NCBI RefSeq assembly: GCF_003606365.2
Contig: NZ_CP031933.2
Span: 372,001 to 436,000, forward strand
Direction: 5' to 3'
Length of the DNA stretch: 64,000 nucleotides
Source of the DNA: Companilactobacillus zhachilii
GTDB taxonomy: Bacteria; Bacillota; Bacilli; Lactobacillales; Lactobacillaceae
Shown here: positions 11,435 through 59,119 of the stretch, piece after piece
How positions within the stretch are numbered: the first letter of the stretch is position 1
Layout: each line of letters opens with the position of its first letter
Notes under the pieces: generated by a model
What the model was told of the DNA's origin: nothing
Database searches by the model: none
The model's input: only the letters and a program-made list of their open reading frames with translations
Made by a program: the position numbers and the translations under genes

Positions 11435-11619
11435 GCCGTCTCCAGATTCGGACAGTGGTCACTGGCGGTGCGGAACGGCCCGAGCCACGGTCTCGGACCT
11501 CGGTTTAAGCCTTGCAAGTTCGGCAAGTCTTAAACGCGCCCGGTGCTGTAAGAACGACAAAAGCGGTCGTCCTAACACCACTTTCACTGCCATTGACCAC
11601 TGTCCGAATCTTCCGACTA
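11435..11619 (-). repeat. family-1 structured element, copy 1 (subtype B)
   Basis: About 185 bp, read on the minus strand. Outer arm ATTCGGACAGTGG pairs with CCACTGTCCGAAT and closes three inner hairpins. It is nearly identical to copy 9 at 30354, including 22 bases beyond the element boundary (11620-11641), so one locus was copied from the other. One base pair differs in a compensated way: C11461-G11595 here, T30380-A30515 in copy 9. It lies upstream of the DyP gene and forms a head-to-head pair with copy 2. The ORF through this region is an artefact of the repeat. Confidence 0.85.
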
Positions 11620-11810
11620 GTTCTTTATTAGCTCAAGAATAGCTTTCAGACTAATTTGAAGACAGGCCATAGGTTATTTCTCGTTGATAGGTAATCATAA
11701 CTTGAGTGAGACAGTATACATTTTGACAATTTTATATTAATGATGATTAGGGGGGCCTAAGGAAAAATCCTAGTTTGAAGATATTAATCTCTGAATAATT
11801 AAGATAAATT

Positions 11811-11989
11811 AGTCGGAAGAACTGAGAGAATAGTCACTGGCAGTGAAAGTGGCGTTAGAGCTTTAGATCTTACACCACCGGGCGTGTTTGGAGACTTGCG
11901 GGTCTTGCAAGGCTTCAAACCGAGGACTGAGACTTTGGCTCAGTCCGGTCCGCACAGCCAGTGACTATTTTCTCAGTTCTGGAGACGGC
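11811..11989 (+). repeat. family-1 structured element, copy 2 (subtype B)
   Basis: The outer stem includes AACTGAGA and TCTCAGTT plus AGTCACTGGC and GCCAGTGACT. Inner hairpins: GTGGCGTTAGAG, GTGTTTGGAGACTTGC, and GGACTGAG with CTCAGTCC. It ends GGAGACGGC, 37 bases before the predicted promoter of the hydrolase gene at 12105. The 190 bases between copies 1 and 2 hold no gene. Confidence 0.85.
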
Positions 11990-12025
11990 CCTGAAAGAAT
12001 GTTTAAAAAATATAAATTAAAATTC

Positions 12026-12054
12026 TTGATTATGCTTTAATTTAGTAGAATAAT
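12026..12054 (+). promoter_or_regulatory. candidate sigma-A promoter of the hydrolase gene
   Basis: TTGATT, 17 bases, then AATAAT. It lies between family-1 copy 2 and the start codon, so copy 2 would be upstream of the transcript. Confidence 0.45.
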
Positions 12055-12104
12055 TAAATTAATAATTTAATTAGGAAAAACCGCCGAAAGGAAGTACCAA
12101 TAAT

Positions 12105-13094
12105 ATGTGCACAAGTCTTAGTCTAGGAGCTTTGGATGGCTCAAAATTTTTAGCCAGAACAATGGATTTTGCGTTTGAGTTGAATGGTCAACCAACATTT
12201 TTGCCTGAAAACTATGAATGGATTTCTTCATTTGATAAAAAAACTTATACAACTGATTACGCCATCATGGGAACTGGTGCTAAATACGGTAATAACTATA
12301 TGGTAGCCGATGGTTTCAATGAATATGGATTATCAGCTGCAGAATTGTATTTCGTTAATGCCGCTAAATACGATGATGAACCAACAGCAGGCAAAACTAA
12401 CTTAGTTTCTGAAGAATTTATTCTTTGGGCCTTGGGTAACAATAAGAATATCGAAGAACTACGTAAAAATTTGGAAAACGTTCGAATCATTGAATCAGAC
12501 GCTGGTGTTATGGGTCAAAACCAACCACTTCACTTTATCTTCAGCGATGCAACTGGAGCCACTTATGTCCTTGAACCAGAAGGCGACGGCTTAATTCTTG
12601 AAGAAGATAAAGTTGGCGTTATGACTAATACACCTGACTATGACTGGCACAAGACTAACTTGGCAAACTATTTGGGCACACAAACAACTGGCTTTAAAGC
12701 TAAAAAGTTTGGCGACGAAGAAGTTATTCCTGCCGGATCAAATGGTACTTTTAGATTACCTGGTGGTTTCACAGCGGTTGATCGTTTTGTTAGAACTGCT
12801 TTCATTCGTAATGAAATTGAAGAGCCTAAGGATGCTCAACAAGCTGTTAACACAATTTTGCACATTCTGGATAGTGTAACGGTTCCTCGTGGAATTAATA
12901 TGAAAGATAATGGTGAACCAAGCTATACTCAATATCAAACTGTTTTGGACTTAACAAATAAAATTATGTATTACGTCCCATATGGTAATCGAACTGTCTT
13001 TGAGCTTAAGATGACTGATGATATGATTAAAAATCAAAAAGAACCAAAGGAATTTGAAGTTGCTCTGAAGCAAGAGTTTTCAAGTTTGAATTAG
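12105..13094 (+). CDS. choloylglycine hydrolase family protein (bile salt hydrolase / penicillin V acylase)
   Basis: 329 residues. After removal of Met1, Cys2 is the N-terminal nucleophile (MCTSLSLGALDG). The early ARTMDF segment supplies the conserved Arg and Asp of the active site, and NTPDYDWHKTNL the conserved Asn region. This Ntn-hydrolase family splits amide bonds in conjugated bile salts, penicillin V or acyl-homoserine lactones. The long LNGQPTFLPENYEW loop seems closer to the PVA-like group than to classic BSH, but that is only an impression. No signal peptide, so intracellular. Confidence 0.85.
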   Translation: MCTSLSLGALDGSKFLARTMDFAFELNGQPTFLPENYEWISSFDKKTYTTDYAIMGTGAKYGNNYMVADGFNEYGLSAAELYFVNAAKYDDEPTAGKTNLVSEEFILWALGNNKNIEELRKNLENVRIIESDAGVMGQNQPLHFIFSDATGATYVLEPEGDGLILEEDKVGVMTNTPDYDWHKTNLANYLGTQTTGFKAKKFGDEEVIPAGSNGTFRLPGGFTAVDRFVRTAFIRNEIEEPKDAQQAVNTILHILDSVTVPRGINMKDNGEPSYTQYQTVLDLTNKIMYYVPYGNRTVFELKMTDDMIKNQKEPKEFEVALKQEFSSLN

Positions 13095-13101
13095 AAGAAC
13101 C

Positions 13102-13138
13102 AAGAGTGATACCTAAATTAAGGTACCACTCTTTTTTT
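13102..13138 (+). terminator. rho-independent terminator of the hydrolase gene
   Basis: AAGAGTGATACCT pairs with AGGTACCACTCTT with one mismatch and is followed by seven T. Confidence 0.85.
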
Positions 13139-13236
13139 GGTATCTAAGTAGGATATGTTATAAGATATAGTTAATAAAAAAGATAATCACCATGTCAAAA
13201 ATTGGTGCGACCCAATTATGAAATGAGGAATAGATA

Positions 13237-13965
13237 ATGGCCGATTTAGTTTATCAAAAAATTATTACATCATTAAAACAAGCAATCGATTCGGGTGAGT
13301 TTTCAGATATGCGTTTGCCTGATGAAAGATCACTTGCTGAAAGTTATAGCGTCAGCCGCAGTTCAATCAAGCGTGCATTAGGATTGATGGCTGATCAAGG
13401 AATCATTTTTAAAAAACGTGGTTCAGGAACCTTCGTTAATCCTTTGTATTTGAAACAAGGCTCATCATTCAATTACAGCGGTAAAAATCTAGGCATCACT
13501 GATAGTTTCAATGCCAACGGACAAAAACCAGGTGTCAAAGTATTGAGTTTTGAAGTGGTTCATCCAAGTAAAGATTTGCAAGATAATTTGTTCTTGAAAT
13601 CGTCAGAATTCGTTTATGCCTTCAAACGTTTACGTTTACTTGATGACGTTCCTTTTATGATTGAAACAGGTTACATTCCCATCAAACTGGCACCAGAGTT
13701 GTCAGAACAAATTGCTTCCGAATCTATCTTCAATTATGTAGAATCAGAATTAGGTAAGGAAGTTAACAAAACATACTTAACAATTTCCGCCGAACCATCT
13801 GATGAAGAAGGTAAAGAACTGTTGCATTTGAAAGACAATGAACCCGTCGGGTTAATGGAAGGAATCTTTTTCTTAGACGACGGAACACCGTTCGAATTTT
13901 CAACCATGAAGTTACATTATAAGTATTTCAAGTACGATTCATTTGTTGATTTAGCAAATAAGTAA
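13237..13965 (+). CDS. GntR family transcriptional regulator (HutC/UTRA type)
   Basis: 242 residues. Residues 1-70 form a winged helix-turn-helix (LPDERSLAESYSVSRSSIKRAL, then FKKRGSGTFV). Residues 80-240 form a UTRA ligand domain: FVYAFKRLRLLDDVPFMIETGYIP and the closing FEFSTMKLHYKYFKY are UTRA hallmarks. Such regulators answer to sugar phosphates or related metabolites. The next gene is phosphoketolase, so control of that gene is plausible, though the phosphoketolase promoter is separate. RBS GAGG is 9 bases before the ATG. Confidence 0.85.
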   Translation: MADLVYQKIITSLKQAIDSGEFSDMRLPDERSLAESYSVSRSSIKRALGLMADQGIIFKKRGSGTFVNPLYLKQGSSFNYSGKNLGITDSFNANGQKPGVKVLSFEVVHPSKDLQDNLFLKSSEFVYAFKRLRLLDDVPFMIETGYIPIKLAPELSEQIASESIFNYVESELGKEVNKTYLTISAEPSDEEGKELLHLKDNEPVGLMEGIFFLDDGTPFEFSTMKLHYKYFKYDSFVDLANK

Positions 13966-14004
13966 GAGCTTCCAAAGATTGGAACGCACCAATTATCCAA
14001 ATGG

Positions 14005-14033
14005 TTGACTTTTACACTTGTTCTAGTTATGAT
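14005..14033 (+). promoter_or_regulatory. sigma-A promoter of the phosphoketolase gene
   Basis: TTGACT, exactly 17 bases, then TATGAT. Transcription should start near 14040, about 55 bases before family-1 copy 3. There is no room for another promoter between that copy and the RBS, so the element should lie in the 5' UTR. Confidence 0.7.
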
Positions 14034-14094
14034 ATCCAATGTAAATAGATAACTAAAGAATTAAAAAAACGAGACTTATCTATATTAATAAATT

Positions 14095-14270
14095 AGCTGG
14101 AGGGAGTGAGAAAATTAGGTAGCCGTGCAGGTGGTGTTAGAGCTTTAGCTCTTACACCACGGGACGAGTTTTGAAATTCGCGCACTTTGCGAAGTTCAAA
14201 ATCGAGGTCTGAGACCTTGGCTCAGACCGGTCCCCACAGCAACCTAAATTTCTCACTCCCGGAGGCGGCA
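14095..14270 (+). repeat. family-1 structured element, copy 3 (subtype A), in the phosphoketolase leader
   Basis: A clear model copy. 5' boundary AGCTGG; outer stem GGGAGTGAGAAA with TTTCTCACTCCC; hairpin 1 GTGGTGTTAGAGC with GCTCTTACACCAC; hairpin 2 TTTTGAAATTCGC with GCGAAGTTCAAAA; hairpin 3 GGTCTGAG with CTCAGACC around ACCTTGG; 3' boundary GGAGGCGGCA. The phosphoketolase RBS follows 15 bases later and the only good promoter is upstream, so this copy is probably transcribed as a structured leader. Confidence 0.9.
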
Positions 14271-14301
14271 TATTTTAAACATATTAGGAGTGTGTGCTGT
14301 A

Positions 14302-16653
14302 ATGACAGATTACTCATCAAAAGAATACTTAAACTTAGTAGACAAATATTGGCAAGCAGCAAACTATATTTCTGTTGGTCAACTTTACTTAAAAGACAAT
14401 CCTTTATTGAGACGTGAATTAAAGCCTAGTGATGTTAAGGTTCACCCAATTGGACACTGGGGAACTATTGCTGGTCAAAACTTCATTTACGCCCATTTAA
14501 ACCGTGCTATCAACAAGTATGGTCTAAAAATGTTTTACATTGAAGGACCTGGTCATGGTGGGCAAGTAATGGTTTCTAACTCTTACCTTGATGGTAGTTA
14601 TACGGAAATCTATCCTGAAATTACTCAAGACACTAAGGGTATGCAAAAGCTATTCAAGCAATTTTCATTCCCAGGTGGTGTTGCATCTCATGCCGCTCCT
14701 GAAACTCCAGGATCAATGCATGAAGGTGGGGAATTAGGTTATTCTCTATCTCACGGTGTTGGTGCAATTCTTGATAATCCTGATGAAATCGCTGCGGTTG
14801 TTATCGGTGATGGTGAAGCTGAAACTGGTCCATTGGCTGCTTCATGGTTCTCCAATGTCTTCATTAACCCAGTTGATGATGGTGCTGTTTTACCAATCTT
14901 AAATCTTAATGGATTCAAGATTTCTAACCCAACAATTTTGTCACGTAAGAGTGATGAAGACTTAACGAAGTACTTTGAAGGTATGGGTTGGGAACCAATG
15001 TTTGTTGAAGGCACTGATCCTGAAAAGATGCATCCAGAAATGGCCAAGACCGTTGATGCGGCAATCGAAAAGATTCAAGCTATCCAAACAGAAGCTAGAA
15101 AACACCCTGCTTCAGAAGCTAAAATGCCTAAGTGGCCGGTTATCATTTTCCGTGCCCCTAAAGGCTGGACTGGTCCTAAGACTTGGGATGGCGAACCTAT
15201 CGAAGGTTCATTTAGAGCTCACCAAATTCCAATTCCTGTTGACCAAAATGACATGCAACATGCTGACAAATTGGTTGAATGGATGGAATCATACAAACCA
15301 GATGAACTATTTGATGAAAATGGTACTTTGAAGAGTGACATTGCTGCGATTGCTCCTAAGGGACAAAGCAGAATGGCTATGAACCCAATCGTTAACGGTG
15401 GGGTTGATCCAAAGCCACTTAAATTACCAGACTATAAGAACTACGCTTTGAACTTTGACAAACGTGGTACTAAAGTTGCTCAAGATATGATTGAACTAGG
15501 CAAGTATTTGGAAGCTGTTATCAAGAACAATCCGGATAACTTTAGATTATTTGGACCTGATGAAACAATGTCTAATCGTTTGTACGACATTTTTAAGACA
15601 ACTAACCGTCAATGGATGGAACCTGTTCATGAACCTAATGATCAATATGAAGCTCCTGCTGGTCGTATTATTGATTCACAACTTTCAGAACACCAAGCTG
15701 AAGGATTTAATGAAGGTTATACTTTGACCGGACGTCATGGAATTTTTGCTAGTTACGAAGCATTCTTGAGAGTTGTCGATTCAATGTTGACACAACACTT
15801 CAAGTGGTTGAGAAAAGCCAATGAATTGGGTTGGAGAAAGAAGTATCCTTCACTAAATGTGATTGCTACTTCAACAGCTTTCCAACAAGATCACAATGGT
15901 TACACTCACCAAGACCCAGGTATCATTACTCATTTGGCTGAAAAGAAACCTGAATACATTCGTGAATACTTCCCAGCCGACACAAACTCATTGTTAGCTG
16001 TTATGCCTAAGATTTTGGATGACCAAGAAAAAATCAATTTGTTGGTTACTTCAAAACAACCAAGACCACAATTCTACTCAATTGAAGAAGGTCAAGAATT
16101 GGCTGAAAAAGGACTCAAGGTAATTGACTGGGCATCAAATGACAACGGAGATCCTGATATTGTGATTGCTGCTGCCGGAACCGAACCAAACCTTGAAGCT
16201 TTGGCCGCAATTAGTATTCTTAGAAAAGAAAAACCAGAACTTAAGATTAGATTCGTTAACGTTGTTGACTTATTGAAGTTGAGATCACCAAAAGTTGACC
16301 CTCGTGGCCTAACGGATGAACAATTCAATGAAATTTTCACAGTTGATAAACCAGTATTGTTCGCATTCCATGGTTTCGAAGACATCATTAAAGATATCTT
16401 CTTTGATCGTGCAAACCATAACTTATATGTTCATGGATACCGTGAAAATGGAGATATCACCACACCATTTGATATGCGTGTAGTTAATGAGATGGATAGA
16501 TTCCACTTAGCAGAAGAAGCAGCCGTTGCCGTACAAGGAGACGCCGCCAGTGACTTTGCTGACGAGATGGAAGCAGAAGTTGATAAACATAACAAGTATA
16601 TTCGTGAACATGGTGATGACTTGCCAGAAGTTCAAGAATGGACATGGGAATAA
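14302..16653 (+). CDS. xfp: xylulose-5-phosphate/fructose-6-phosphate phosphoketolase
   Basis: 783 residues from ATG 14302; an in-frame GTG at 14290 overlaps the AGGAG site. Thiamine-diphosphate enzyme that splits xylulose-5-P or fructose-6-P with phosphate into acetyl-phosphate and an aldose phosphate, the key step of pentose fermentation in lactobacilli. Signatures: [46 protein letters not shown], and [14 protein letters not shown] (TPP/Mg binding). Length is normal. It has a family-1 element in its leader and a family-2 element after its stop. Codon use (strong preference for a few codons) suggests high expression. Confidence 0.97.
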
Positions 16654-16656
16654 TTT

Positions 16657-16776
16657 AGAGAGCGGAGACAGGGCGGTTAGCTCCCGAGCATTTTCGTAAC
16701 ATGATGAATTACCCGCTGCACTTTGCGGGTGATTTATCATGTTATGAAAAGCGGAACTCGTTTTAGAGCCACTGCC
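16657..16776 (+). ncRNA. family-2 structured 3' UTR element, copy a (after xfp)
   Basis: Starts three bases after the xfp stop with AGAGAGCGGAG and ends GAGCCACTGCC. The apical helix pairs ACATGAT with ATCATGT and ACCCGC with GCGGGT. Compared with copies c and d it lacks about 24 bases after AAGCGGAA, so the right arm of the outer stem is missing. A terminator follows 50 bases later, so it is transcribed as part of the mRNA tail. Confidence 0.75.
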
Positions 16777-16825
16777 TACATAACCGAACTAAAATACAAC
16801 TGACTAAAAAAATAATAAACGAAAT

Positions 16826-16862
16826 AAGAGATAGCCATAAATAATATTGGCTATCTCTTTTT
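16826..16862 (+). terminator. rho-independent terminator of the xfp transcript
   Basis: AAGAGATAGCC pairs with GGCTATCTCTT and is followed by a T run. Confidence 0.85.
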
Positions 16863-17235
16863 GATAACATAAATTCTAAAATTAGAAAAAAGATTAATAA
16901 ATCATCAAAAAATCTGTTCACAATCCATAAACAACTGTCCACAATCCCCGCCATATCAGCCTTTATAGAAAAATAAGTTTAAAAATAATTCTATAAGTTT
17001 AATTCTAAGAAACCTTCATAATTAATTTGAAAAAATGTGAGAGATTTGAAAATCCCTACTGCCAGTAGAATGAAAACTTTAATTTATTCTAAGACAATAA
17101 TAGGTATTATTAGAATGGAACAATTGTATTATTGAAAAGGCTATAATGCCTGGTGTGACGGGGTTGTTAAAGCCTTTTTAGCATGGTACTATCAGTTATG
17201 GAAAAAAGAGAAAAAGACACTAAGGGGTGGATGTT
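16863..17235. other. AT-rich intergenic region
   Basis: No protein gene seen. At 17135-17180, AAAAGGCT and AGCCTTTTT can pair around a 30-base loop with a T tail, a possible weak terminator or attenuator before the small gene at 17236. The rest is featureless. Confidence 0.35.
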
Positions 17236-17421
17236 ATGACAACAAGAAACGTAAAATTCATGAAAGTAGCACTAATGGCGGTAGTGGCCATATTATTAAT
17301 GATGTTATTCGTTTTGCAAAGCCGATACACCATTCCAGCAGTTGCAATTGCCGCAATCGCATTAGCAGTCTACTCAGAAGATAAAATTGCTAAGAAGCAT
17401 ACATTCAAGTTCATCGACTAA
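17236..17421 (+). CDS. small membrane protein (61 aa)
   Basis: GGGGTGG precedes the ATG at 17236; the in-frame ATG at 17227 lies within that site. The product MTTRNVKFMKVALMAVVAIL... has two hydrophobic segments (about residues 10-26 and 32-46) and a basic tail ending KKHTFKFID. Unknown function; a strong terminator follows directly. Confidence 0.55.
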   Translation: MTTRNVKFMKVALMAVVAILLMMLFVLQSRYTIPAVAIAAIALAVYSEDKIAKKHTFKFID

Positions 17422-17440
17422 TTAGCCGATATAAACCAAA

Positions 17441-17479
17441 AAGAGCCCTTCGATATACCAATCGAAAGGTTCTTTTTTT
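17441..17479 (+). terminator. rho-independent terminator
   Basis: AAGAGCCCTTCGAT pairs with ATCGAAAGGTTCTT (one C-A mismatch, one G-T) and is followed by a seven-T run. Its A-rich left side may also end the minus-strand gene at 17489. Confidence 0.85.
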
Positions 17480-17488
17480 CCAAATTTT

Positions 17489-18118
17489 CTACCAAATAAA
17501 TGGAATTAAGGATTTAGTTTTCTTTTTGTAATCAATGAAAGCTTGTCCATAGTGGCTTTCCAAATACTTGTCAGCATTAGGAATATATGAAAAAACAAAC
17601 ATGCATAGGAGAAATAGTGGAATGAGTAGTGACCAAAGATTTCCGGTTACTAAAGCAAAGCCTAAGACCCAGAGAACGTCTCCAAAATAGTTGATGTGCA
17701 CTGCGTATTTGAACAAACCACCGGTATATAATTTTCCTTTGTTGTTTGGATCGTCCTTAAATGGTTTCCGTAATAGTTCTGATAAGGAATTAATCGTTGA
17801 ACCGGCGATGAAAAGAATCCATCCGATCACTGCCAAGTTGACTGAACCCCATTGTGCTAAGAATGGAAATAGCAGGTAATAAAGAGCAAAGGCAGTGCTG
17901 TTGCCAATTGCTTCTTTCCAGCTGATACCGCGAGGTAACCAGATAAACATCATACAGTTCAAACGAGCAAAGGTAATTAGAATGAGTAATATCATGCTTA
18001 TCGTTGTCGATGGTGAAAGGTTAGGAAAAATAAAGCGAAAATCAATTAAAATATAGATTAACTGGGCAACTAAAATAAAAATTTTAGCACTGGTTGTTTT
18101 ACGATGAATTCCGTACAT
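17489..18118 (-). CDS. isoprenylcysteine carboxyl-methyltransferase/NnrU-like membrane protein
   Basis: 209 residues with about five membrane segments. The C-terminal part (HINYFGDVLWVLGFAL ... ESHYGQAFIDYKKKTKSLIPFIW) matches the pattern of the ICMT/PEMT/DUF1295 superfamily, in which the final helices and a Y-x-x-Y/K segment bind SAM or a nucleotide cofactor. True enzymatic activity in bacteria is rarely known. Monocistronic, read toward the small gene. Confidence 0.65.
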   Translation of the reverse strand: MYGIHRKTTSAKIFILVAQLIYILIDFRFIFPNLSPSTTISMILLILITFARLNCMMFIWLPRGISWKEAIGNSTAFALYYLLFPFLAQWGSVNLAVIGWILFIAGSTINSLSELLRKPFKDDPNNKGKLYTGGLFKYAVHINYFGDVLWVLGFALVTGNLWSLLIPLFLLCMFVFSYIPNADKYLESHYGQAFIDYKKKTKSLIPFIW

Positions 18119-18175
18119 AATAGCGACCCCTTTTGAAGTTATAACTTAATTATAGAGCAAAAAATTAAACACACA

Positions 18176-18214
18176 AAAAGCGTTGAATTCAATTTAGAAT
18201 CCAACGCTTTTTTT
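18176..18214 (-). terminator. bidirectional terminator after hxlR
   Basis: AAAAGCGTTG pairs with CAACGCTTTT, with A and T runs on both sides. It touches the stop codon of the minus-strand regulator. Confidence 0.85.
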
Positions 18215-18612
18215 AATCTGCATATGGCAAAGCATCGTTAGCAACATCTTCTTTATTCAAAAGAATAATATTTTCGCCTTTTTGCTTGCGCATTTCAATA
18301 TCATGTTCTCCCCAAACACAGAGATCTTCCAAAATCTTATTCAATGAGTGTCCGTAATCAGTCAATGAATATTCAACTTTAGGTGGAATTTGATTGTAAA
18401 CTTTACGAGCAACAATGCCGTCGTCTTCAAGTTCACGCAATTGTTGAGTTAACATTTTTTGAGTGATGTTAGGGATGGCACGACGTAATTCACCAGTACG
18501 CATTTTTCCGTGTTTTAAGTGGCAGAGAATAATTGGTTTCCACTTGCCACCGATAATTCTCATAGTTGCCTCAACACCAATATTGTAAATTGCCTGTTTC
18601 GTTAATCGTCAT
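18213..18612 (-). pseudogene. HxlR-type regulator with an apparent N-terminal frameshift
   Basis: Winged-helix HxlR protein: IIGGKWKPIILCHL, TGELRRAIPNITQKMLTQQL and PPKVEYSLTDYG are diagnostic. The longest frame with a standard start is 116 residues from 18563, but the conserved YNIGVEAT segment continues upstream with no ATG, GTG or TTG start before a stop. Removing one base from the triplet at 18587-18589 joins it to an ATG at 18612 and gives the family-like N-terminus MTINETGNYNIGVEAT. So the gene is frameshifted, uses an unusual start, or contains a sequencing error. It would normally repress the MFS gene just upstream on the same strand. Confidence 0.6.
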
Positions 18613-18654
18613 CCTCTCAATTCAGTATTTGTATCTTAACATCACAAGGTGGTC

Positions 18655-19861
18655 TTAGCAATTTTCCAAATCTAAATCTTTTGAATCAACGGTTGAACTT
18701 TCCATTTTCATCAAAACTAAAATCAAAACGATACTAGCAACCAACATGATAATTCCGATGAATGGTGTATTTAAGATTTGGTGGTGTGCTACGGCGATTC
18801 CGCCCATTGTTGAAGCAACAGAGATTCCGACGTTAAATGCTGAAATATTCAAAGCTGATGCCAAAGGTACTTCGTTAGGAGTATATTTTTCGGCCAGTTG
18901 AACGATGTAAAGTTGAAGTCCAGGAACGTTCATGAAAGCGAAGAGTCCCATCAATAGAACAGCTAGTAGTCCTAGGAAATGAAGGCCAATTGTTGCTCTA
19001 ATAACTAGTAAAGCCACTCCCAGTCCGATAAACATCCCCATCAAAGCTTTAAGCGGCTTCTTGTTAGCCCAGCGGCCACCAAGGGTGTTTCCGATAGCAA
19101 CGGCAACACCGTAGAAAATCAAAATTACAACAATAGCACTTTCAGACCAGCCCATATTTTTGTTCAAAATAGTTGTTAAATAAGTATAGACAGGGAAAGT
19201 AGCTCCATATCCTAAAGCTGTGATAACTAAAATTAATAGTAATTGTGGTTGTTTGATGATACGCCAGATACCTTTGATACTAGTTGGCTTTGGCAATGGT
19301 AATTCGTTTGGTACCAAAATGGCATTACTAATTAGTCCAACTAGACCAAGTGCGACAAGAAATGCAAATGACATTCTCCAACCAAAAGTTTGACCGATGA
19401 AAGTTCCGATGGGAACACCGGTAATTGTGGCAACAGTCAAACCAGTAAACATAACCGCAATGGCTGAAGCACGTTTGTTAGGTGCAACCACATCAGCGGC
19501 AATCAATGAAGCAATAGTCATGAAAATCCCATGTGATAAAGCAGCAATGACCCGACCTGCCAACAAAATAGCAAAAGTTGGTGCTAAAGTTGCCAAAAGA
19601 TTTCCAATGATGAAACTAATCATGATACCAATCAATAATTTTTACGGTTCCAACGATTAGTCACTAAAGCTAAAACAGGAGCACCAATCATCACGCCCAA
19701 TGCGTAAATTGAAACAGTTAAGCCCCCTCGGAAATAGAAATACCAAAAGTCTTTGTAAGTAATGGCATAATTCCGACACTAATAAATTCGGTAGATCCAA
19801 TGGCAAAAGCACTGATAGCTAATGACAACAGAATCCAATTTGGTGATATTTTCTTGTTCAT
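18655..19861 (-). pseudogene. MFS drug:H+ antiporter gene with two homopolymer frameshifts
   Basis: Start at 19861 (MNKKISPNWILLSLAISAFAIGSTEF), typical of AraJ/PbuE/EmrD-like DHA1 transporters. The frame breaks at the five-C run 19723-19727 (one base short) and again at the five-T run 19639-19643 (one base short). The middle piece LTVSIYALGVMIGAPVLALV lies in a second frame and the last 326 residues in a third. Correcting both runs gives one transporter of about 400 residues with 12 helices. Everything else is well conserved, so either a very recent loss or an assembly error is likely. The HxlR gene follows 43 bases on. Confidence 0.8.
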
Positions 19862-19901
19862 ATTATTTTCGCCCCTTATGTAAAAATTGAGTATGTGTAA
19901 C

Positions 19902-19929
19902 ATTATATGGGGTTAGAACAAATAAACAA
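19902..19929 (-). promoter_or_regulatory. promoter of the MFS/hxlR unit
   Basis: On the minus strand, TTGTTT, 16 bases, then TATAAT. Just upstream, GTACTTTAAAGTGC (19934-19947) is a near-palindrome and AAAGTAC recurs at 19960-19966. Such GTAC-ended repeats are the kind of site HxlR proteins bind, but this is inference. Confidence 0.55.
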
Positions 19930-19998
19930 TTACGTACTTTAAAGTGCAGTAGGGACTAAAAAGTACCTATAAGGATTTTTGGTAATGGGTTGGTTCAC

Positions 19999-20174
19999 TG
20001 CCGCCTCCAGGAACAAGAAATTGGGGTCGCTATGGGGACCGGTTGGAGCCAAGGTCTCCAACCTCGATTTTGAACCTCGCAAAGTGCACGAGTTTCAAAA
20101 GTCGTCCCGTGGTGTAATGGCTAAAGCCATAACGCCACCTTCATAGCGACCCCAATTTCTTGTTCCTTCCGGCT
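19999..20174 (-). repeat. family-1 structured element, copy 4 (subtype A)
   Basis: The outer stem is perfect over 25 bp (GGAACAAGAAATTGGGG region against its complement at the far end). It lies upstream of the minus-strand MFS gene and its promoter, and is the left member of a head-to-head pair with copy 5. Hairpin 1 here pairs G with T where the other strand would give C with A. Confidence 0.9.
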
Positions 20175-20345
20175 AAAACATTTTAAATTTATATGATACT
20201 TTTTTAGATACTTTATTTTTGATATTGGATTTTTAGTTTATTAAAAAATGTTCATTATTCAATATAATCAATAAATCTAGAGTATTTAATCTCTTGAAAG
20301 TATAATTTTATATCCATAATATTTTCCAAACAAAGGACAGACTAT

Positions 20346-20518
20346 AGTCGGAGGACGAACCGAAGAAGTCAGCAGTGGTAGTGGTGTTAGCGATTTATCG
20401 CTTACTCCACTGGACGTATTTTGAACTTCGCAAAGAACGCGAATTTCAAAATCGAGCTTGGAGACCTTGGCTCCGAGCGGTCCTCACAGCGACTTCTTCG
20501 GTTCGTCCGGAGACGGCA
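20346..20518 (+). repeat. family-1 structured element, copy 5 (subtype C)
   Basis: Outer stem GACGAACCGAAGAAGTC with GACTTCTTCGGTTCGTC, 17 bp perfect and unlike any other copy. Inner parts carry the shared GAGACCTTGGCTC hairpin and CGGTCCTCACAG. It ends 27 bases before the -35 box of the Phe-leader promoter. Partner of copy 4 across a 171-base AT-rich spacer. Confidence 0.9.
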
Positions 20519-20544
20519 ATAATTAAATAATTCTAATAAACTTA

Positions 20545-20575
20545 TTGACACATTAATTTTAAAATGTTTTACTAG
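20545..20575 (+). promoter_or_regulatory. promoter of the Phe-leader/ABC importer operon
   Basis: A perfect TTGACA -35 is followed after 17 bases by TTTACT, or after 19 by TACTAG. The leader peptide start lies about 35 bases further. Confidence 0.55.
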
Positions 20576-20608
20576 TCATTGTAAATTGAAAACGAGGAGC
20601 ACTTTATT

Positions 20609-20677
20609 ATGAAAACAAGTAATAATCTTAACTCACATTTAAATAATCAATTTGCCTTTAGCTTTTTCTTTAGATAG
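20609..20677 (+). CDS. phenylalanine-rich leader peptide (22 aa)
   Basis: A GAGGAGC ribosome site is 8 bases before ATG 20609. The peptide MKTSNNLNSHLNNQFAFSFFFR has five Phe in its last eight residues (codons at 20651, 20657, 20663, 20666 and 20669). The stop codon abuts the first arm of an attenuator. This is a classic ribosome-sensed leader: supply of Phe-tRNA controls how fast the ribosome moves. It is too short to be a functional protein otherwise. Confidence 0.85.
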   Translation: MKTSNNLNSHLNNQFAFSFFFR

Positions 20678-20855
20678 CGTTTGTATCCGGTTGTTGGATA
20701 CGAACGCGTACGTGTTCGTATCTATCGATTGGCTAAAGCTTTTAAGCATGTCATTTAAAGCCAGATAGATACAGGGTTGAATCTATCTGGAGAAAATATT
20801 TGGGCCCAATTATTTAACCAGTTAGATTCGTATCCGAATCTAGCTGGTTTTTTTT
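20677..20855 (+). promoter_or_regulatory. multi-segment transcription attenuator
   Basis: Seven segments can pair in alternating sets: 1 (20677-20688) with 2 (20696-20707); 2 with 3 (20714-20722); 3 (20718-20734) with 4 (20759-20772); 4 with 5 (20781-20790); 5 (20779-20790) with 6 (20818-20829); 6 (20816-20830) with 7 (20835-20849), the last being a 15-bp terminator with an eight-T tail. Pairings 1:2, 3:4 and 5:6 exclude the terminator; 2:3, 4:5 and 6:7 allow it. A ribosome paused early on Phe codons would leave arm 1 free, favouring readthrough; one reaching the stop would cover arm 1, favouring termination. The pairing is seen; the direction of control is inferred. Confidence 0.8.
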
Positions 20856-20879
20856 ATACATTTGGGAGGATGAATTTTC

Positions 20880-21848
20880 ATGAAAAAGACATTAATTGGT
20901 TTATTAACAGTAACAATGGTAGCACTTTTATTGGTGGGCTGCTCAAATAATTCAGCAAGTTCTAGCAAGAACTTAAACGTGGGGATTTTACAAATTGTGC
21001 CACATGGTTCACTTGATGCCGCTCGTAAAGGGTTCAAAGAAGAGCTCAACAAAGAGGTTAAACAGCACGATAAATCTATCAAGGTCAATTACAATTACCA
21101 AAATGCACAAGGGGATCAATCAAATCTAAATTCAATGGCACAACAATTGACGCAAAAGAAAAATGATTTGATTTTAGGTATCGCTACACCTTCTGCACAA
21201 GCTTTAGCTAAGAAAACTAAGTCAACACCAATCGTGGTTACGGCGGTTACTAATTTGGAAAGTGCTGGTTTGATTAAAAATGACGAAAAGCCTGGTACTA
21301 ATGTGACAGGGACTAAGGATCTGGGACCAGTTGATAAACAAGTTAAGTTATTAACAAGTTTGACAAAAAATAACAAGCCTATCGGAGTAATGTACAACTC
21401 ATCTGAAGAAAATTCGGTTCTTCAAATTAAGATGGTCAAAAAATACGCTAAGAACCACAATTTAAAATTAAATATTGTCAGTGTTACAAGCACTAATGAT
21501 GTTGCCAGTGCCTTATCCGGTATGGCTGACAAGGTTTCTGGAATTTATCTACCAACTGATAATTTGATGGCAAGTTCAATGAAGACTATCGGTAAAAAAG
21601 CTCGTGAAGCTAAATTGCCCGTCGTTACAGGTTCAATCGAAATGGCCGAAGATGGCGGTACAGCAACTTATGGTATCAATTACAAAGATCTTGGTAAACA
21701 AACAGCTAAGATGGCTTACAAGATTTTGATCGACAAAAAGAAGCCTCAAGATATGCCCGTTGAAACATCACATACATTGAGACTTTACGTTAACAAGGAC
21801 AATGCCAAGGCAGTTGGTATTAATCCTGATCAAATTCAAAAGCCTTAG
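20880..21848 (+). CDS. ABC importer substrate-binding lipoprotein (TrpX-like family)
   Basis: 322 residues. Lipoprotein signal peptide with lipobox LLVGC (Cys about 21). The mature part is the PF04392-type ABC_sub_bind fold: GILQIVPHGSLDAARKGFKEEL, LILGIATPSAQALAK, GVMYNSSEENS, GGTATYGINYKDLGKQTAKMA. Relatives are linked to aromatic amino acid uptake (TrpX in streptococci). The upstream Phe-rich leader argues that the substrate is phenylalanine or a Phe-containing or Phe-derived compound. GGGAGG precedes the start. First gene of a three-gene operon. Confidence 0.88.
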   Translation: MKKTLIGLLTVTMVALLLVGCSNNSASSSKNLNVGILQIVPHGSLDAARKGFKEELNKEVKQHDKSIKVNYNYQNAQGDQSNLNSMAQQLTQKKNDLILGIATPSAQALAKKTKSTPIVVTAVTNLESAGLIKNDEKPGTNVTGTKDLGPVDKQVKLLTSLTKNNKPIGVMYNSSEENSVLQIKMVKKYAKNHNLKLNIVSVTSTNDVASALSGMADKVSGIYLPTDNLMASSMKTIGKKAREAKLPVVTGSIEMAEDGGTATYGINYKDLGKQTAKMAYKILIDKKKPQDMPVETSHTLRLYVNKDNAKAVGINPDQIQKP

Positions 21849-21872
21849 TTAGAAATTTTGGAGGTAATAAAT

Positions 21873-22823
21873 ATGCTTATATCTAGTCTTGGACAAGGAT
21901 TACTGTGGGCGCCTTTAGCAATTGGTGTCTTTATCACATTTAGAATTTTGGATATTCCCGATTTAACAACTGAAGGTAGTTTTCCTTTTGGGGCAGCCGT
22001 CGCAGTTAGCTTAATGTTGAAAGGTCAATCAGCCATTACAGCCGCTTTAGCAGGTTTTGTGGCGGGATGTTTAGCCGGACTTATCACGGGAATTTTAGAT
22101 ACTAAATTACATATCCCATCACTTTTAGCCGGAATTTTAACAATGACTGGTTTGTACTCAATCAACATGCACATCATGGGTAAGTCCAATGTGCCACTTC
22201 TAAACGAAAAAGTTTTAACCGAATATTTACCAGCTAGTTGGAATTTAGACATTCAGACAATTGTCTTAGGATTACTCGTTACAAGTATCGTGGTCGCAAT
22301 TCTTTATCTGATGTTCAAAACTAGGTTAGGTTTGTCATTGATGGCGACTGGTAATAATAAAGATATGTCAGCTGCTAATGGTATCAATACTGACGGCATG
22401 ATTATTTTCGGCTACATGATTTCCAATGGATTCATCGCTTTGTCAGGTGCCTTGATTGCCCAAAGTAATGGTTACGCTGATATCGGCATGGGTATCGGAA
22501 CCATTGTTATCGGCTTGGCGTCAGTCTTAGTTGGGGAAATTTTCCTACGTGGACACAATATTTTAACAAGATTAATTGCCATGGTCGTCGGAGCTGTCGT
22601 TTACCGTTTGCTCTTGACGGTGGCAATGGGATTAGGATTCCCACCAGATGATCTGAAGATTCTTTCAGCCGTTATTTTGGTAATCGTAATCTGTGTACCA
22701 ATTATCCAAAATCGTATCAGAACGAAACGTCAATTGAAGAAATACTTAGAACAAATGGAGGACCAAGACGATGAACGTATTACAAGTGAAACACCTACAA
22801 AAGGTATTCTTTCCCGGGACTGA
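21873..22823 (+). CDS. ABC importer permease (TrpY-like)
   Basis: 316 residues from ATG 21873, which has GGAGG nine bases upstream. About eight to nine membrane helices; FRILDIPDLTTEGSFPFGAA and GLASVLVGEIFLRGHN are typical of BPD_transp_2 permeases (COG4120). The C-terminus is charged (RTKRQLKKYLEQMEDQDDER). Overlaps the ATPase start by 53 bases. Confidence 0.88.
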   Translation: MLISSLGQGLLWAPLAIGVFITFRILDIPDLTTEGSFPFGAAVAVSLMLKGQSAITAALAGFVAGCLAGLITGILDTKLHIPSLLAGILTMTGLYSINMHIMGKSNVPLLNEKVLTEYLPASWNLDIQTIVLGLLVTSIVVAILYLMFKTRLGLSLMATGNNKDMSAANGINTDGMIIFGYMISNGFIALSGALIAQSNGYADIGMGIGTIVIGLASVLVGEIFLRGHNILTRLIAMVVGAVVYRLLLTVAMGLGFPPDDLKILSAVILVIVICVPIIQNRIRTKRQLKKYLEQMEDQDDERITSETPTKGILSRD

Positions 22824-23526: not shown

Positions 23527-23649
23527 ATAGTTATTGAATTGGTTTTGATGTTTATGAAGTCAATTTGATTTATATCTTTTAAATGTTTTAAATTTCAAAT
23601 TTAGTATTTTTAACTAAAGGAAGAAAGTTTCGCTATTTTTTAATGAATT

Positions 23650-23827
23650 AGCTGGAGGACGGTAGGGATTGAATATCAGCAGTGATAGAGGCGTTAGGGA
23701 TTTATCCCTTACGGCACAGGACGTATTTTGAGATTCGCGAATTGTGCGAAGCTCAAAATCGAGGCTCGAGACCTTGGCTCGAGCCGGTCCCACAGCAGAT
23801 TTCAATCTCTACCGTCCTCCGGCGGCA
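23650..23827 (+). repeat. family-1 structured element, copy 6 (subtype C)
   Basis: Outer stem GGACGGTAGGGATTGAA with TTCAATCTCTACCGTCC, one G-T in 17. Hairpin 1 is poorly paired here (GAGGCGTTAGGGAT against ATCCCTTACGGCAC). It lies after the ABC operon and is followed within 20 bases by a terminator, so it could be a separate small transcript or the operon's 3' end. No gene starts after it. Confidence 0.88.
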
Positions 23828-23845
23828 ATGTTCAAGACAAAATAA

Positions 23846-23886
23846 AAAAAGCCAATCACTGAAGTAGAATTCAGTAATTGGCTTTT
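23846..23886 (+). terminator. bidirectional terminator after family-1 copy 6
   Basis: AAAAGCCAATCACTGAA pairs with TTCAGTAATTGGCTTTT (one mismatch) with A and T runs on both sides. It can end transcripts that cross copy 6. Confidence 0.85.
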
Positions 23887-24125
23887 ATTTGTGTTAATCC
23901 ATTTATCAGGGGGGAAGGATGGATTACGAATTAGTTATGTTTTAATGAGAATCATTATCTATATCTATTTTTAATATGAAGAGAGTTACTTTATAGGGGG
24001 GATAAGCTAAAGGATTTTCTTCTCCTTTAACTTATAAGTACATCATAACCAGTAAATGTGAAGAAATTATGATGCCAATGTTTTAAAAATACGAAGATTG
24101 TTTAAAAATATGTTTTTTTTAAATA
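23887..24125. other. non-coding AT-rich stretch inside the three-element cluster
   Basis: No ORF with an RBS. Two short purine-rich runs with five to six G (near 23910 and 23996) stand out, but I see no clear promoter pair. Together with copies 6, 7 and 8, the 1.1 kb from 23527 to 24645 contains no protein gene. Confidence 0.4.
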
Positions 24126-24308
24126 TGCCACCTCCAGAAACAAGAAAATTGAGTTCACTGTGGGGACCGGCACGAGCCAGAAAACGGTCTCGTACCTCGA
24201 TTTTGAACCTCGCAAAAGCCGCGAGTTTCAAAAGTCGTCCCGTGGTGTAAGAGCTAAAGCTCCAACACCACCTTCACAGTGAACTCAATTTTCTTGTTCC
24301 TTCCGGTT
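24126..24308 (-). repeat. family-1 structured element, copy 7 (subtype A)
   Basis: The outer stem is perfect over 24 bp (AACAAGAAAATTGAG with CTCAATTTTCTTGTT continuing inward). Hairpin 3 has an enlarged loop (CCAGAAAACGGT read on the plus strand), shared only with copy 17. Left member of a head-to-head pair with copy 8; no minus-strand gene follows it. Confidence 0.9.
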
Positions 24309-24386
24309 AGGTTGTTTGATATTTTTGAAACACTTTTAAAATTTTCTACTGTTCTAGATAATAATGTCATAGCTAACAGACATAAT

Positions 24387-24437: not shown

Positions 24438-24462
24438 AATATCTATTATTAACAAATACATT

Positions 24463-24635: not shown

Positions 24636-24645
24636 ACTTTAAAAC

Positions 24646-46770: not shown

Positions 46771-46775
46771 AAATC

Positions 46776-46982: not shown

Positions 46983-47027
46983 AAATTCCGTATATTTTAT
47001 CCAGTAATTAAAAACAACGAATAAACT

Positions 47028-47207
47028 AGCCGGAAGGAGCAAAAAATTTAGGTCGCTATGCAGGTGGCGTTATGGCTTCAGCCATTACACCACGGGACGA
47101 CTTTTGAAATTCGCGAACTTTGCGAATTTCAAAATCGAGACTTGAGACCGCTCCTTGGCTCAAGTCGGTCCCCATAGCGACCTAAATTTCTTGCTCCTGG
47201 AGGCGGA
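47028..47207 (+). repeat. family-1 structured element, copy 12 (subtype A)
   Basis: 25-bp outer stem from GGAGCAAAAAATTTAGG with one A-C position that would be G-T on the other strand. Hairpin 3 has four extra bases in its loop (GACCGCTCCTTGG). The flank CAACGAATAAAC is shared with copy 16. The pepO2 promoter lies directly after it. Confidence 0.9.
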
Positions 47208-47226
47208 ACATTTCAACAGCTTACGA

Positions 47227-49330: not shown

Positions 49331-49391
49331 GTTCTTAGAACCATATACCTTATTAGACAAATTAAGACCATTAAACTAAATCAAACAAAAT

Positions 49392-49567
49392 AGTCGGAGG
49401 AGGAGAGAAAATGTACCTGCTGTGAAAGTGGCGTTAGAGCTTTAGCTCTTACACCACCGGGCGTGTTTGAAGACTTGCTGAACTTGCAAGGCTTCAAACC
49501 GAGGCCTGAGACCTTGGCTCAGGCCGGTCCGCATAGCAGGTGCATTTTCTCTCCTCCGGAGACGGCC
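49392..49567 (+). repeat. family-1 structured element, copy 13 (subtype B)
   Basis: Outer stem GGAGGAGAGAAAATG with CATTTTCTCTCCTCC and ACCTGC with GCAGGT, containing one T-G that would be A-C on the other strand. Hairpin 2 GTTTGAAGACTTGC with GCAAGGCTTCAAAC. Upstream of the MFS gene and its promoter; copy 14, inverted, lies at the gene's other end. Confidence 0.9.
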
Positions 49568-49580
49568 AAATATAAAATTA

Positions 49581-50898: not shown

Positions 50899-50910
50899 GG
50901 TGTTTAAGTA

Positions 50911-51086
50911 TACCGCCGCAAGGAGTAAGAAATTTGAGTCGCTATGGGGACCGACCTGAGCCAAGGTCTCAGGTCTCGATTTTGAGCCTTGCATAAACCG
51001 CAAGTCTCAAAACTCGTCCCGTGGTGTAAGCACTAAAGTGCTAACACCACCTTCATAGCGACTCAAATTCTTACTCCTTGTGGCTA
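50911..51086 (-). repeat. family-1 structured element, copy 14 (subtype A)
   Basis: Starts 13 bases after the MFS stop, in inverse orientation. The outer stem AAGGAGTAAGAA with TTCTTACTCCTT has one bulge. In the MFS mRNA its complement would form the 3' UTR before the terminator at 51142. Left member of a head-to-head pair with copy 15. Confidence 0.9.
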
Positions 51087-51141
51087 GTGTATTTTTTTAA
51101 TGTTTGGTTGATTATTGAATTTTTTAATATTAGGTCAGATT

Positions 51142-56006: not shown

Positions 56007-56143
56007 GTGGAGAAAAGTAGGTTTTGTTTTAAATTATTTTTTGACAATATCTTTAAATCGTTTAGTGATGATAAGAAATGTCAAATCGCGCAATCATTAA
56101 GAATGCAGTAATACTAAAAATTATCCAAACCAACGAATAAACG

Positions 56144-56322
56144 AGACGGAAGAAGCAAGAAAAATTAGGACGCTGTGAAGGTGGCGTTAAGGCTTTAGCC
56201 TTTACACCACGGGACGATTTTTGAAATTTGAGCGGTCTTCTCAAAGTTCAAAATCGAGCCTGGAGACCTTGGCTCCAGGCGGTCCCCACAGCGACCTAAT
56301 TTTCTTGCTTCTGGAGGCGGCA
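56144..56322 (+). repeat. family-1 structured element, copy 16 (subtype A)
   Basis: Outer stem GAAGCAAGAAAA with TTTTCTTGCTTC, continuing inward with one bulge. Hairpin 2 has an altered tip (TTTGAGCGGTCTTCTCAAA). It ends 19 bases before the -35 box of the MerR-controlled promoter, and copy 17, inverted, lies at the far end of that operon. Confidence 0.9.
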
Positions 56323-56341
56323 AATTTATTTATAATAACCC

Positions 56342-57134: not shown

Positions 57135-57143
57135 GAGGTAAAA

Positions 57144-57779
57144 ATGACAAAAAAAGTTTTGATTTTAGGCGCGGCGAGTCAAATTAGTCATTATTTGATT
57201 CCCGATTTATTGGAGCAAACAGATGCACAATTGACCTTATTTGCTCGAAATGCTCAAAATCGTTTAAAAGAATATCAAAGTAAGACCAAAATTATTGATG
57301 GCGATTGGACCAATTCAGAAGAGTTATTAGCAGCCTTAAAGGGACAAGATATTGTCTATTTAGCGACTGTTCCTAATACTAAGACTTCAGAAGTAATCGT
57401 TAGGACAATGAAACAAGCCAATGTTAAGCGTCTGATAGTCGCTGGTGGATTAGGTATTTTCGATGAGGTCGCTGGCAAATTTGGTGAATGGAATGCTCGA
57501 ATGATTGGTGACTATTCAGCGATAAAAGAGGCTTCCTTTACCTTGTGTGATAAAGATTTAGACGTAACCTTTTTGAGAATGTCTTGGCTATACGACCAAG
57601 ATAATAATACGAAATATGAAATTGTTCCTGAAGGTAAACCCTACAAAGGAACACAAGTAACTAGACAAGCAGTGGCACAATTGATTACAAATATAGTCAA
57701 AAAGCCATCGCTTTATAACAACCAAAACATCGGTGTCGTTGAACCCAATACAGAATGGGACAAACCATCGTTTTACTAA
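57144..57779 (+). CDS. NAD(P)H-binding (NmrA/YwnB-like) protein
   Basis: 211 residues. KKVLILGAASQISHYLIPDLL is a variant of the G-x-x-G-x-x-G nucleotide loop (GAASQIS, with the last Gly replaced). VKRLIVAGGLGIFDE and LRMSWLYDQ follow the extended-SDR pattern of atypical members. It may use NADPH to reduce quinones or carbonyls, or only bind it. Third gene of the operon. Confidence 0.82.
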   Translation: MTKKVLILGAASQISHYLIPDLLEQTDAQLTLFARNAQNRLKEYQSKTKIIDGDWTNSEELLAALKGQDIVYLATVPNTKTSEVIVRTMKQANVKRLIVAGGLGIFDEVAGKFGEWNARMIGDYSAIKEASFTLCDKDLDVTFLRMSWLYDQDNNTKYEIVPEGKPYKGTQVTRQAVAQLITNIVKKPSLYNNQNIGVVEPNTEWDKPSFY

Positions 57780-57791
57780 GAGAGGAAACTT

Positions 57792-58532
57792 ATGATTAAA
57801 GATAAAGTCGTAGTAATCACTGGTGCATCAAGTGGTATCGGTGAAGCAACTGCCAAAATGTTGGCTAAAAATGGAGCCAAAGTTGTGTTAGGCGCCCGCC
57901 GTGAAAATCGTTTGCAAGCAATTGTTGACGATATTAAACAAGCTGGTGGACAAGCAGTTTACAAAGCAACCGATGTCAGGGATGCTAAAGAAGTCGCCGA
58001 TTTAGTGGCACTCGCTAAAACAGAATTTGGTGGATTGGATGTAATTTTTAATAATGCAGGAATTATGCCAAGTTCTCCGATCAGTGCTTTACATACAAAA
58101 GAATGGAATGACATGATCGACATTAATATAAAAGGCGTTTTGAATGGAGTAGCGGCTGTCATGCCAGACTTTGTAAAAAATAAACAAGGTCACATAATTA
58201 CAACCTCATCAGTGGCTGGAATCAAGAGCTTCACCGGTGCTGGGGTATACGGAGCAACTAAATATGCTGTCCGTAATTTGATGGAAGTCATTCGCATGGA
58301 AAGTGCTCAAGAAGGAACCAATATTCGTACAACAACACTTTATCCAGCAGCAATCAATACCGAACTTTTGCATACAATTACAGATAAAGATACTAAGAAA
58401 AATATGGATGCCTTTTACCAACAAGTTGGCATTTCACCAGAAGCTATTGCTCGAGTAGTAAACTTTGCGATTGACCAACCAGAAGAAGTAAATGTTAATG
58501 AATTTACAATTTACCCAACAAAGCAAATGTAG
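57792..58532 (+). CDS. short-chain dehydrogenase/reductase
   Basis: 246 residues. VVITGASSGIGEATAKML is the cofactor loop, NNAGIMP is present, and TTSSVAGIKSFTGAGVYGATK gives Ser and Tyr-x3-Lys, so this is a canonical active SDR. Acts in the cytosol on an unknown alcohol or carbonyl; the regulator suggests aldehydes. Last gene of the MerR-controlled operon; family-1 copy 17 begins 10 bases after the stop. Confidence 0.93.
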   Translation: MIKDKVVVITGASSGIGEATAKMLAKNGAKVVLGARRENRLQAIVDDIKQAGGQAVYKATDVRDAKEVADLVALAKTEFGGLDVIFNNAGIMPSSPISALHTKEWNDMIDINIKGVLNGVAAVMPDFVKNKQGHIITTSSVAGIKSFTGAGVYGATKYAVRNLMEVIRMESAQEGTNIRTTTLYPAAINTELLHTITDKDTKKNMDAFYQQVGISPEAIARVVNFAIDQPEEVNVNEFTIYPTKQM

Positions 58533-58542
58533 TAATAGTTTT

Positions 58543-58722
58543 CCACCTCCAAGAGCAAGAAAATTTTGGTCGTTATGGGGACCGATTCGAGCCAGAAAGC
58601 GGTCTCGAATCTCGATTTTGAAACTCGCAAAAACCGCGAGTTTCAAAAGTCGTCCCGTGATGTAAGGGATAAATCCCTAACATCACCTGCACAGCGACCA
58701 AAATTTCTTGCTCTTTCCGGTT
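58543..58722 (-). repeat. family-1 structured element, copy 17 (subtype A)
   Basis: Outer stem AAGAGCAAGAAA with TTTCTTGCTCTT. Hairpin 3 has the enlarged loop CCAGAAAGCGGT seen also in copy 7. It follows the SDR gene directly, so its complement would be the operon's 3' UTR. Left member of a pair with copy 18; the 220-base spacer (58723-58944) is AT-rich and empty. Confidence 0.9.
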
Positions 58723-58944
58723 CGTTCGTTTTTTGTTTGTGATAAACAATTAGAGAATCTTGAGTATTAAAGTGTGGCTTTGAATATTTTTGTGTGATTA
58801 ATGACAAGATTAAAATGGTTTTAAGTCTTTGTTAGTAGCGTAAAAGCAAATTAAGGACGAGATTACAACTAGTGCTATGTACAAAGTAAATTAATTTGTT
58901 TCAATTTTAAATAAATCTATGAAAATTAATTAATAGTTCAACTA

Positions 58945-59119
58945 ACCGTAGGAAGAGAGAAATTTAGTCAGCAGTGCAGGTGGCGTTATGGCTTTAGCCA
59001 TTACACCACGGGACGAGTTTTGAAATTCGCGTACTTTGCGAAGTTCAAAATCGAGACTTGAGACCTTGGCTCAAGTCGGTCCCCACAGCAGACTAAATTT
59101 CTCTCTTCCGGAGGTGGCA
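58945..59119 (+). repeat. family-1 structured element, copy 18 (subtype A)
   Basis: Outer stem GGAAGAGAGAAATTTAGTC with GACTAAATTTCTCTCTTCC, 19 bp perfect. Boundary variants are AACCGTAGG at the left and GGAGGTGGCA at the right. A terminator follows six bases later, so any transcript of this copy would end before the ugp promoter. Confidence 0.9.

Follow-up and report, generated by a model that had tools for sequence, protein, structure and literature searches.

A repeated, structured element occurs eighteen times in a 64,000-nt stretch of the Companilactobacillus zhachilii genome (contig NZ_CP031933.2, positions 372,001 to 436,000), which is referred to here as the window and to which all plain coordinates refer. 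The element is named R1 after the covariance model built from a MAFFT alignment (A1) of the window copies. R1 probably forms the structured core of non-autonomous mobile elements that make up a family in the Lactobacillales, with about 500 copies in this genome, in which the fold of the plus strand would be needed, an enzyme would act in trans, and copies would overwrite one another. Direct support comes from its abundance, its covarying fold with a strand asymmetry, the insertion of some subfamilies with target duplications, the pairing rule followed by neighbouring copies, and the replacement of copies at fixed positions.

Copies in the window, the genome and the order

The preliminary description of this DNA had listed 18 copies and proposed a covariance model as a check. 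The R1 model recovers exactly these copies, within a few bases of the positions first given, as sense matches of 156–201 bits. No 19th full copy is found in the window, the next R1 matches being the antisense strands of the known 18, and a second model, R2, built from copies in other genera, recovers the identical set. By the covariance model, twelve copies lie on the plus strand and six on the minus strand. Each of the six minus copies is followed by a plus copy after a gap of 132–215 bp, forming six tail-out pairs that had escaped the preliminary description. The copies are listed below with their strands and scores, and with identities to the copy at the matched position in C. nantensis.

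11432..11621, minus strand: copy 1 (type A), left member of pair 1; R1 156.1 bits, R2 130.5
11808..11992, plus strand: copy 2, right member of pair 1; R1 183.7 bits
14092..14272, plus strand: copy 3, single; R1 201.1 bits; same copy in C. nantensis (91%)
19997..20177, minus strand: copy 4, left member of pair 2; R1 198.3 bits; variant differs in C. nantensis (68%)
20343..20520, plus strand: copy 5, right member of pair 2; R1 163.3 bits; same copy in C. nantensis (92%)
23647..23829, plus strand: copy 6; R1 167.2 bits; same copy in C. nantensis (91%)
24124..24311, minus strand: copy 7, left member of pair 3; R1 181.0 bits
24460..24638, plus strand: copy 8, right member of pair 3; R1 182.8 bits
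30352..30541, minus strand: copy 9 (type A), left member of pair 4; R1 161.8 bits
30674..30853, plus strand: copy 10, right member of pair 4; R1 168.6 bits
44571..44754, plus strand: copy 11, single; R1 165.8 bits; matched copy in C. nantensis 81%
47025..47210, plus strand: copy 12, single; R1 185.4 bits; variant differs in C. nantensis (65%, right flank 94%)
49389..49569, plus strand: copy 13, single; R1 196.7 bits; variant differs in C. nantensis (67%, right flank 89%)
50909..51088, minus strand: copy 14, left member of pair 5; R1 190.9 bits
51233..51422, plus strand: copy 15 (type A), right member of pair 5; R1 157.9 bits; variant differs in C. nantensis (62%)
56141..56324, plus strand: copy 16, single; R1 181.4 bits
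58539..58725, minus strand: copy 17, left member of pair 6; R1 180.5 bits
58941..59121, plus strand: copy 18, right member of pair 6; R1 198.3 bits

The motifs first attributed to all 18 copies are less general, with AGYCGGA present in 11, GGAGRCGGC in 8 and GAGACCTTGGCTC in 12. Several departures from the end motifs preserve pairing, such as the change of GYC/GRC to ACC/GGT. The copies were rightly described as intergenic and GC-richer than their surroundings. None of the 18 overlaps a gene as called by a simple open reading frame caller (1 of 89 copies does so in a larger set), and the mean GC content of the 89 copies is 51%, compared with 27% and 31% in the left and right 150-bp flanks.

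The abundance of R1 was estimated from twenty evenly spaced 20-kb stretches, covering 400 kb of the 2,714,973-bp genome. This sample contains 77 copies or pieces, 71 of them above 120 bits, and two of the twenty stretches contain none. By extrapolation, the genome holds ~480–520 copies, amounting to ~3.5% of its sequence. An R1 search of the whole genome gives at least 150 copies, since all 150 scored candidates match. R1 also matches in 22 of 24 congeners, with counts that are lower bounds (up to 65 scored per genome), and the copy number within the genus ranges from 0 to ~500. When named genomes were scanned for a pattern, most of the records retrieved belonged to Companilactobacillus.

Across the order, copies are recovered by R1 in 9 of 198 genomes, with the branched fold kept and the arms unlike. 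With R2, the fold turns up in 50 of 395 genomes, representing 13 of 80 genera. Many genera of the same family have several copies each (at least; up to seven were scored). In family f4 (perhaps the streptococci), 18 genomes of one genus have a single copy each, with two in one genome, and there are a few matches in families f2, f5 and f7. The f4 copy lies between the IF-2 and RbfA reading frames in all four genomes examined, the names being confirmed for one. These other-genus loci were picked for holding a match and do not form an even sample. A class-wide search matches 6 of 398 genomes, all within the same order.

A BLAST search with one window copy gave no match in the phage and plasmid collections, and three copies from relatives gave none in the plasmid collection; one viral contig contains the motif, with no match to the model. 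In a family f7 genome, a Bacillus-plasmid RNA (RF01691; L201:1760-1828) lies ~95 nt from an R1-like copy.

Fold, covariation and strand asymmetry

The R1 core is ~182 nt long. The 18 window copies, folded with their flanks, reach −86 to −112 kcal/mol and have a branched structure in common. The four-way junction originally suggested gives way to two nested three-way junctions in the predicted fold, in which an outer stem encloses hairpin 1 and an inner stem, and the inner stem encloses hairpins 2 and 3. RNAalifold applied to A1 gives 60 pairs, 39 of which have both sides changed in at least one sequence. In a first cross-genus set (30 sequences from several genera), 57 of the 60 pairs change on both sides, with a covariation score of 0.62 compared with 0.17 after shuffling. 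A second set of newly found copies (43 distinct rows) gives 59 of 60 covarying pairs and a score of 0.66, again compared with 0.17, and in both sets none of 500 shuffles reaches the observed value. In alignment A6 a single row (L226) is antisense, and one place (L235) had also served in building R2. Conserved mismatches persist within the arms: a 3x3 loop near the base, one mismatch in hairpin 1 and one in hairpin 2. Also, a mismatch-containing pattern, GAG-A-C / G-G-CUC, is common to hairpins 2 and 3, which look like two uses of a single motif, and hairpin 3 is absent in several other genera.

The 60 pairs in 89 copies make up 5,340 cells, of which 5,043 are Watson-Crick pairs, 138 G-U, 36 A-C, 77 other combinations and 46 gaps. 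When two pairs that contribute 44 of the G-U cells are left out, 94 G-U cells stand against 36 A-C cells. In unpaired columns, the transitions that would produce G-U are not favoured (169, compared with 215 of the other kind), so mutation bias fails to explain the G-U excess. The excess of G-U over A-C on one strand therefore points to the plus-strand fold, as RNA or single-stranded DNA, as the constrained one.

The preliminary description had read the conserved pairing as either selected RNA structure or arm conversion, and both gain support. Selected structure is supported by the covariation and by the one-strand G-U excess. Arm conversion agrees with the swapping of variants at half of the matched positions in C. 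nantensis, but a pure DNA process of this kind would not predict the one-strand excess. At single loci, an RNA function finds no support, given the mixed orientation relative to genes and the flanks' lack of extra promoter-like sites pointing into R1.

Mobile units, neighbouring copies and replacement

Aligning subfamilies of R1 together with their flanks places the core inside longer units. S1 units measure ~320–375 bp between their ends, start with GGTTCTTTCTYAA and finish with its reverse complement; S2 units measure ~290–355 bp and start with CGTGGTGCTAGTT; type A units have TGTCTTCAAATTATT ends. It is for these three subfamilies that alignment shows terminal inverted repeats. The longest shared flank in 22 two-ended units averages 5.86 bases, compared with 3.94 in shuffled data (maximum 4.68 in 300 shuffles), and it reaches at least 8 bases in 6 of the 22. 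S1 and S2 have 8-bp target duplications: among their 17 rows, 8 share at least 7 bases and 6 share at least 8. One S1-like unit has a clean 307-bp empty site in C. huachuanensis and is present in C. nantensis with 96% identity. Mobility of the elements, which was not proposed as such in the preliminary description, is the best-supported addition of the present analysis.

The S1 left extension includes a terminator-like hairpin, AAAAGGCTAGATAT...ATATCTAGCCTTTT, for example at L130 ~6090-6160 and L141:5219, and some S1 left ends occur alone, without R1 (L140:1983, L141:5219). A 41-amino-acid frame in the type A spacer looked coding and was considered as part of an autonomous element. This candidate was rejected: the frame matches 27 places in this genome, several of them interrupted by stops and indels, and none in 24 relatives. 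Among the intervals between tail-out copies 600–6000 bp apart, one was read and no transposase was seen in it.

Neighbouring copies less than 600 bp apart follow a rule of orientation. The tail-out (−,+) arrangement is found in 51 of 56 cases (this genome, 22 of 24; congeners, 15 of 16; other genera, 14 of 16), with P = 2e-25 against an expectation of one in four when cases are treated as independent. In this count, a place seen twice (L198 = L235) was entered once as (−,+) and once as an extra (−,−). The spacers are not common between pairs, and the pair as the moving unit was rejected on this ground. Among the matches listed in the comparison, C. nantensis has only one member of the pair at four loci and apparently lacks both at two. 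One pair member in C. nantensis (L118:3322) forms a separate unit that carries an 8-bp duplication.

Flanks could be matched at 20 positions, and leaving out two double assignments and four assignments to species other than C. nantensis gives 14. At seven of these, the matched copy has the highest similarity among the 31 compared (81–96% identity). At the other seven the matched copy is not the closest, with identities of 62–77% (six of them 62–72%) that compare with 70 ± 6% for random pairs. The right flanks of these replaced positions are still 79–94% identical, and the right boundary and the orientation are kept; left flanks are poorly conserved in most matched cases. Fixed sites with replaced copies would follow either from conversion between copies or from a renewed insertion at the same site. 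Small blocks also differ between matched copies, for example hairpin 2 of copy 20343, which suggests conversion.

Relation to known repeats and weighing of explanations

The R1 repeat is not described in the literature searched, the coverage of which leaves subscription journals mostly outside. No match to Rfam 15 at the gathering score is present in the window, and none of three matches in 36 loci from relatives overlaps a copy. With a relaxed threshold, one copy gives four matches with expectation values (E) of 1.2–7.2, which were taken as chance. The Rfam match that, by the preliminary description, would have ended the novelty of the family is absent from every copy examined.

Efa-1 of Enterococcus faecalis, also named Efar, is a structured repeat from the same order. 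Efa-1 is given as a 163-bp repeat with 65 copies and a predicted structure of two adjacent stem-loops (PMC2267715). Compared by this description only, R1 resembles it in being intergenic and structured, and is set apart by having junctions rather than two adjacent stem-loops. The bacterial miniature inverted-repeat transposable elements (MITEs) include bcr1-bcr3, BOX and RUP (PMC3446304, PMC3049150, PMC10969869), and are described as typically AT-rich (PMC10969869). R1 is likewise short, non-coding, intergenic, stably folded and present in many copies, and some of its subfamilies have inverted-repeat ends and target duplications. However, its core is GC-richer than its surroundings, and R1 differs from MITEs in its ~500 copies, its tail-out rule and a covarying branched fold that extends across genera with unlike arms.

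The repetitive extragenic palindromic (REP) sequences are single hairpins of 20–40 bp with GTAG or CGTC tags, and some families lack a dedicated transposase (PMC3733652). In REP dimers the direct orientation is avoided, and it is common for the partners to be unlike and the spacers variable (PMC3733652). R1 shares with them a palindromic, intergenic, high-copy nature, a rule of neighbour orientation, unlike partners and variable spacers, but it is ~182 nt long with two junctions and varying ends, and this genome has no Y1 transposase. The best reading of R1 is that of a new, structured branch among mobile repeats of MITE/REP-like type. Since it has defining features in common with both groups but lacks one feature of each (it is not AT-rich and has no Y1 transposase), it is filed as a variant rather than a member.

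In tandem gene contexts, 29 copies have the same orientation as the genes and 24 the opposite one, and for single copies no clear preference of orientation relative to genes is seen. Promoter-like sites reading into the element occur in 28% of flanks and 29% of shuffled flanks, and a dedicated promoter was rejected on this basis. A crude scan for terminator-like sites (a hairpin directly followed by a T-run) finds them in 1–8% of 150-bp flanks, compared with 0–1% when shuffled; a role as terminator or insulator was rejected because such sites are few and single copies lack a clear orientation preference. A facing stop codon lies within 30 nt of the right end in 19 of 89 copies and of the left end in none, a bias that may have its source in the longer left extension of the units.

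These observations bear on whether R1 is a host regulatory RNA, that is, a cis-acting leader, a 3' untranslated region element or a small RNA with a fold kept for the host. Strong covariation with conserved loops, the strand asymmetry of G-U and old copies at the same site in relatives, such as the IF-2/RbfA site, would all fit this explanation, but it is distinctly unlikely given the mixed orientation, the lack of a promoter-like excess, the differing gene contexts, the range of copy number within one genus, and the empty sites and target duplications. The last two features agree with a passive palindromic MITE, in which the fold would be a by-product of long arms kept by quasi-palindrome correction or conversion, with no selection on the folded strand. 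Such an element would account for mobile copies, for arms or whole copies replaced at fixed positions and for the conversion-like small blocks. It would not account for the mismatches conserved in the arms, which template correction should erase, for the excess of G-U over A-C on one strand, or for the same branched fold in other genera and families with unlike arms, and we regard it as unlikely. It is very improbable that the unit is a REP-like dimer of two inverted R1 copies, moved by a Y1/RAYT (REP-associated tyrosine transposase) or similar enzyme, with singles as broken dimers. The tail-out rule, its parallel in REP dimers and the two C. nantensis loci that apparently lack both members speak for a dimer, but the genome has no Y1 transposase, the spacers are unshared, four C. 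nantensis loci have one member, and the member at L118:3322 is its own duplicated-target unit.

We return to R1 as the probable core of a non-autonomous mobile family. The plus-strand fold, as RNA or single-stranded DNA, would be needed for the propagation or survival of the element itself, and this need would explain why the fold is intact at hundreds of unrelated sites. An enzyme in trans would act on the units carrying R1. Copies may also overwrite one another, either by ectopic conversion or by inserting again at the same site; arms replaced at unchanged positions would then be accounted for.

Several observations weigh against this explanation. The G-U excess is weaker across genera (76 compared with 40) and only slight between matched copies (12 compared with 8), and 44 of the 138 G-U cells fall in just two pairs. 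The structure of the model was used in fitting alignments A2-A6, which works in favour of that structure, and some cross-family matches are uncertain (E 1e-6 to 1e-13). Type A has no target duplication in five rows (3–6 shared bases), and of the seven loci with presence/absence differences for which detailed alignments were made, a single one shows a clean empty site, while the other six have diverged flanks. A search for the Y1 transposase (PF01797) gives no match in this genome, with the control positive in 5 of 14 genomes. This genome has a single match to an ISL3-type transposase, at L175 (1254239-1257847), and 11 of the first 13 bases at the ends of the ISL3 element resemble S1 ends, a partial likeness judged by eye.

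Two candidate movers were set aside. The RAYT transposase was ruled out, as none is found in this genome. An autonomous ISL3 partner was left aside as doubtful, the end resemblance being only partial; a fuzzy search for S1 and S2 ends gave no match in the ISL3 locus. The L175 transposase is read in two frames and is therefore probably broken.

Tentatively, R1 could be the first example among bacterial mobile repeats of dependence on one folded strand for spread. It would then be comparable to the short interspersed elements (SINEs), with an ancient fold and a moving form that is either a retro-copied RNA or a DNA hairpin, in both cases of the plus strand. The same tentative comparison would cover the ~500 copies in one lineage, the one or two old copies in the f4 genus and the almost exclusively tail-out neighbours. 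A repeat that makes up ~3.5% of a genome and keeps its fold while its sequence changes, with the same fold in at least 13 genera, is a test case for whether the structure of bacterial repeats is a by-product of palindromes or a requirement for movement. The tail-out rule and the replacement at fixed sites are directly testable by comparison of strains, and R1 would supply a new Rfam-type family with thousands of members.

The window contains other repeats. A second, unrelated GC-rich palindromic family (AGAGAGCGGAG... ...GTAGCTCGTTT) follows genes at 16652-16823, 27193-27510, 44186-44374 and 46771-46901, and a search with window positions 10300-30200 finds further copies in relatives. Between 35006 and 41940, three long reading frames contain tandem 75-78-bp repeats akin to those of BspA-like surface proteins.

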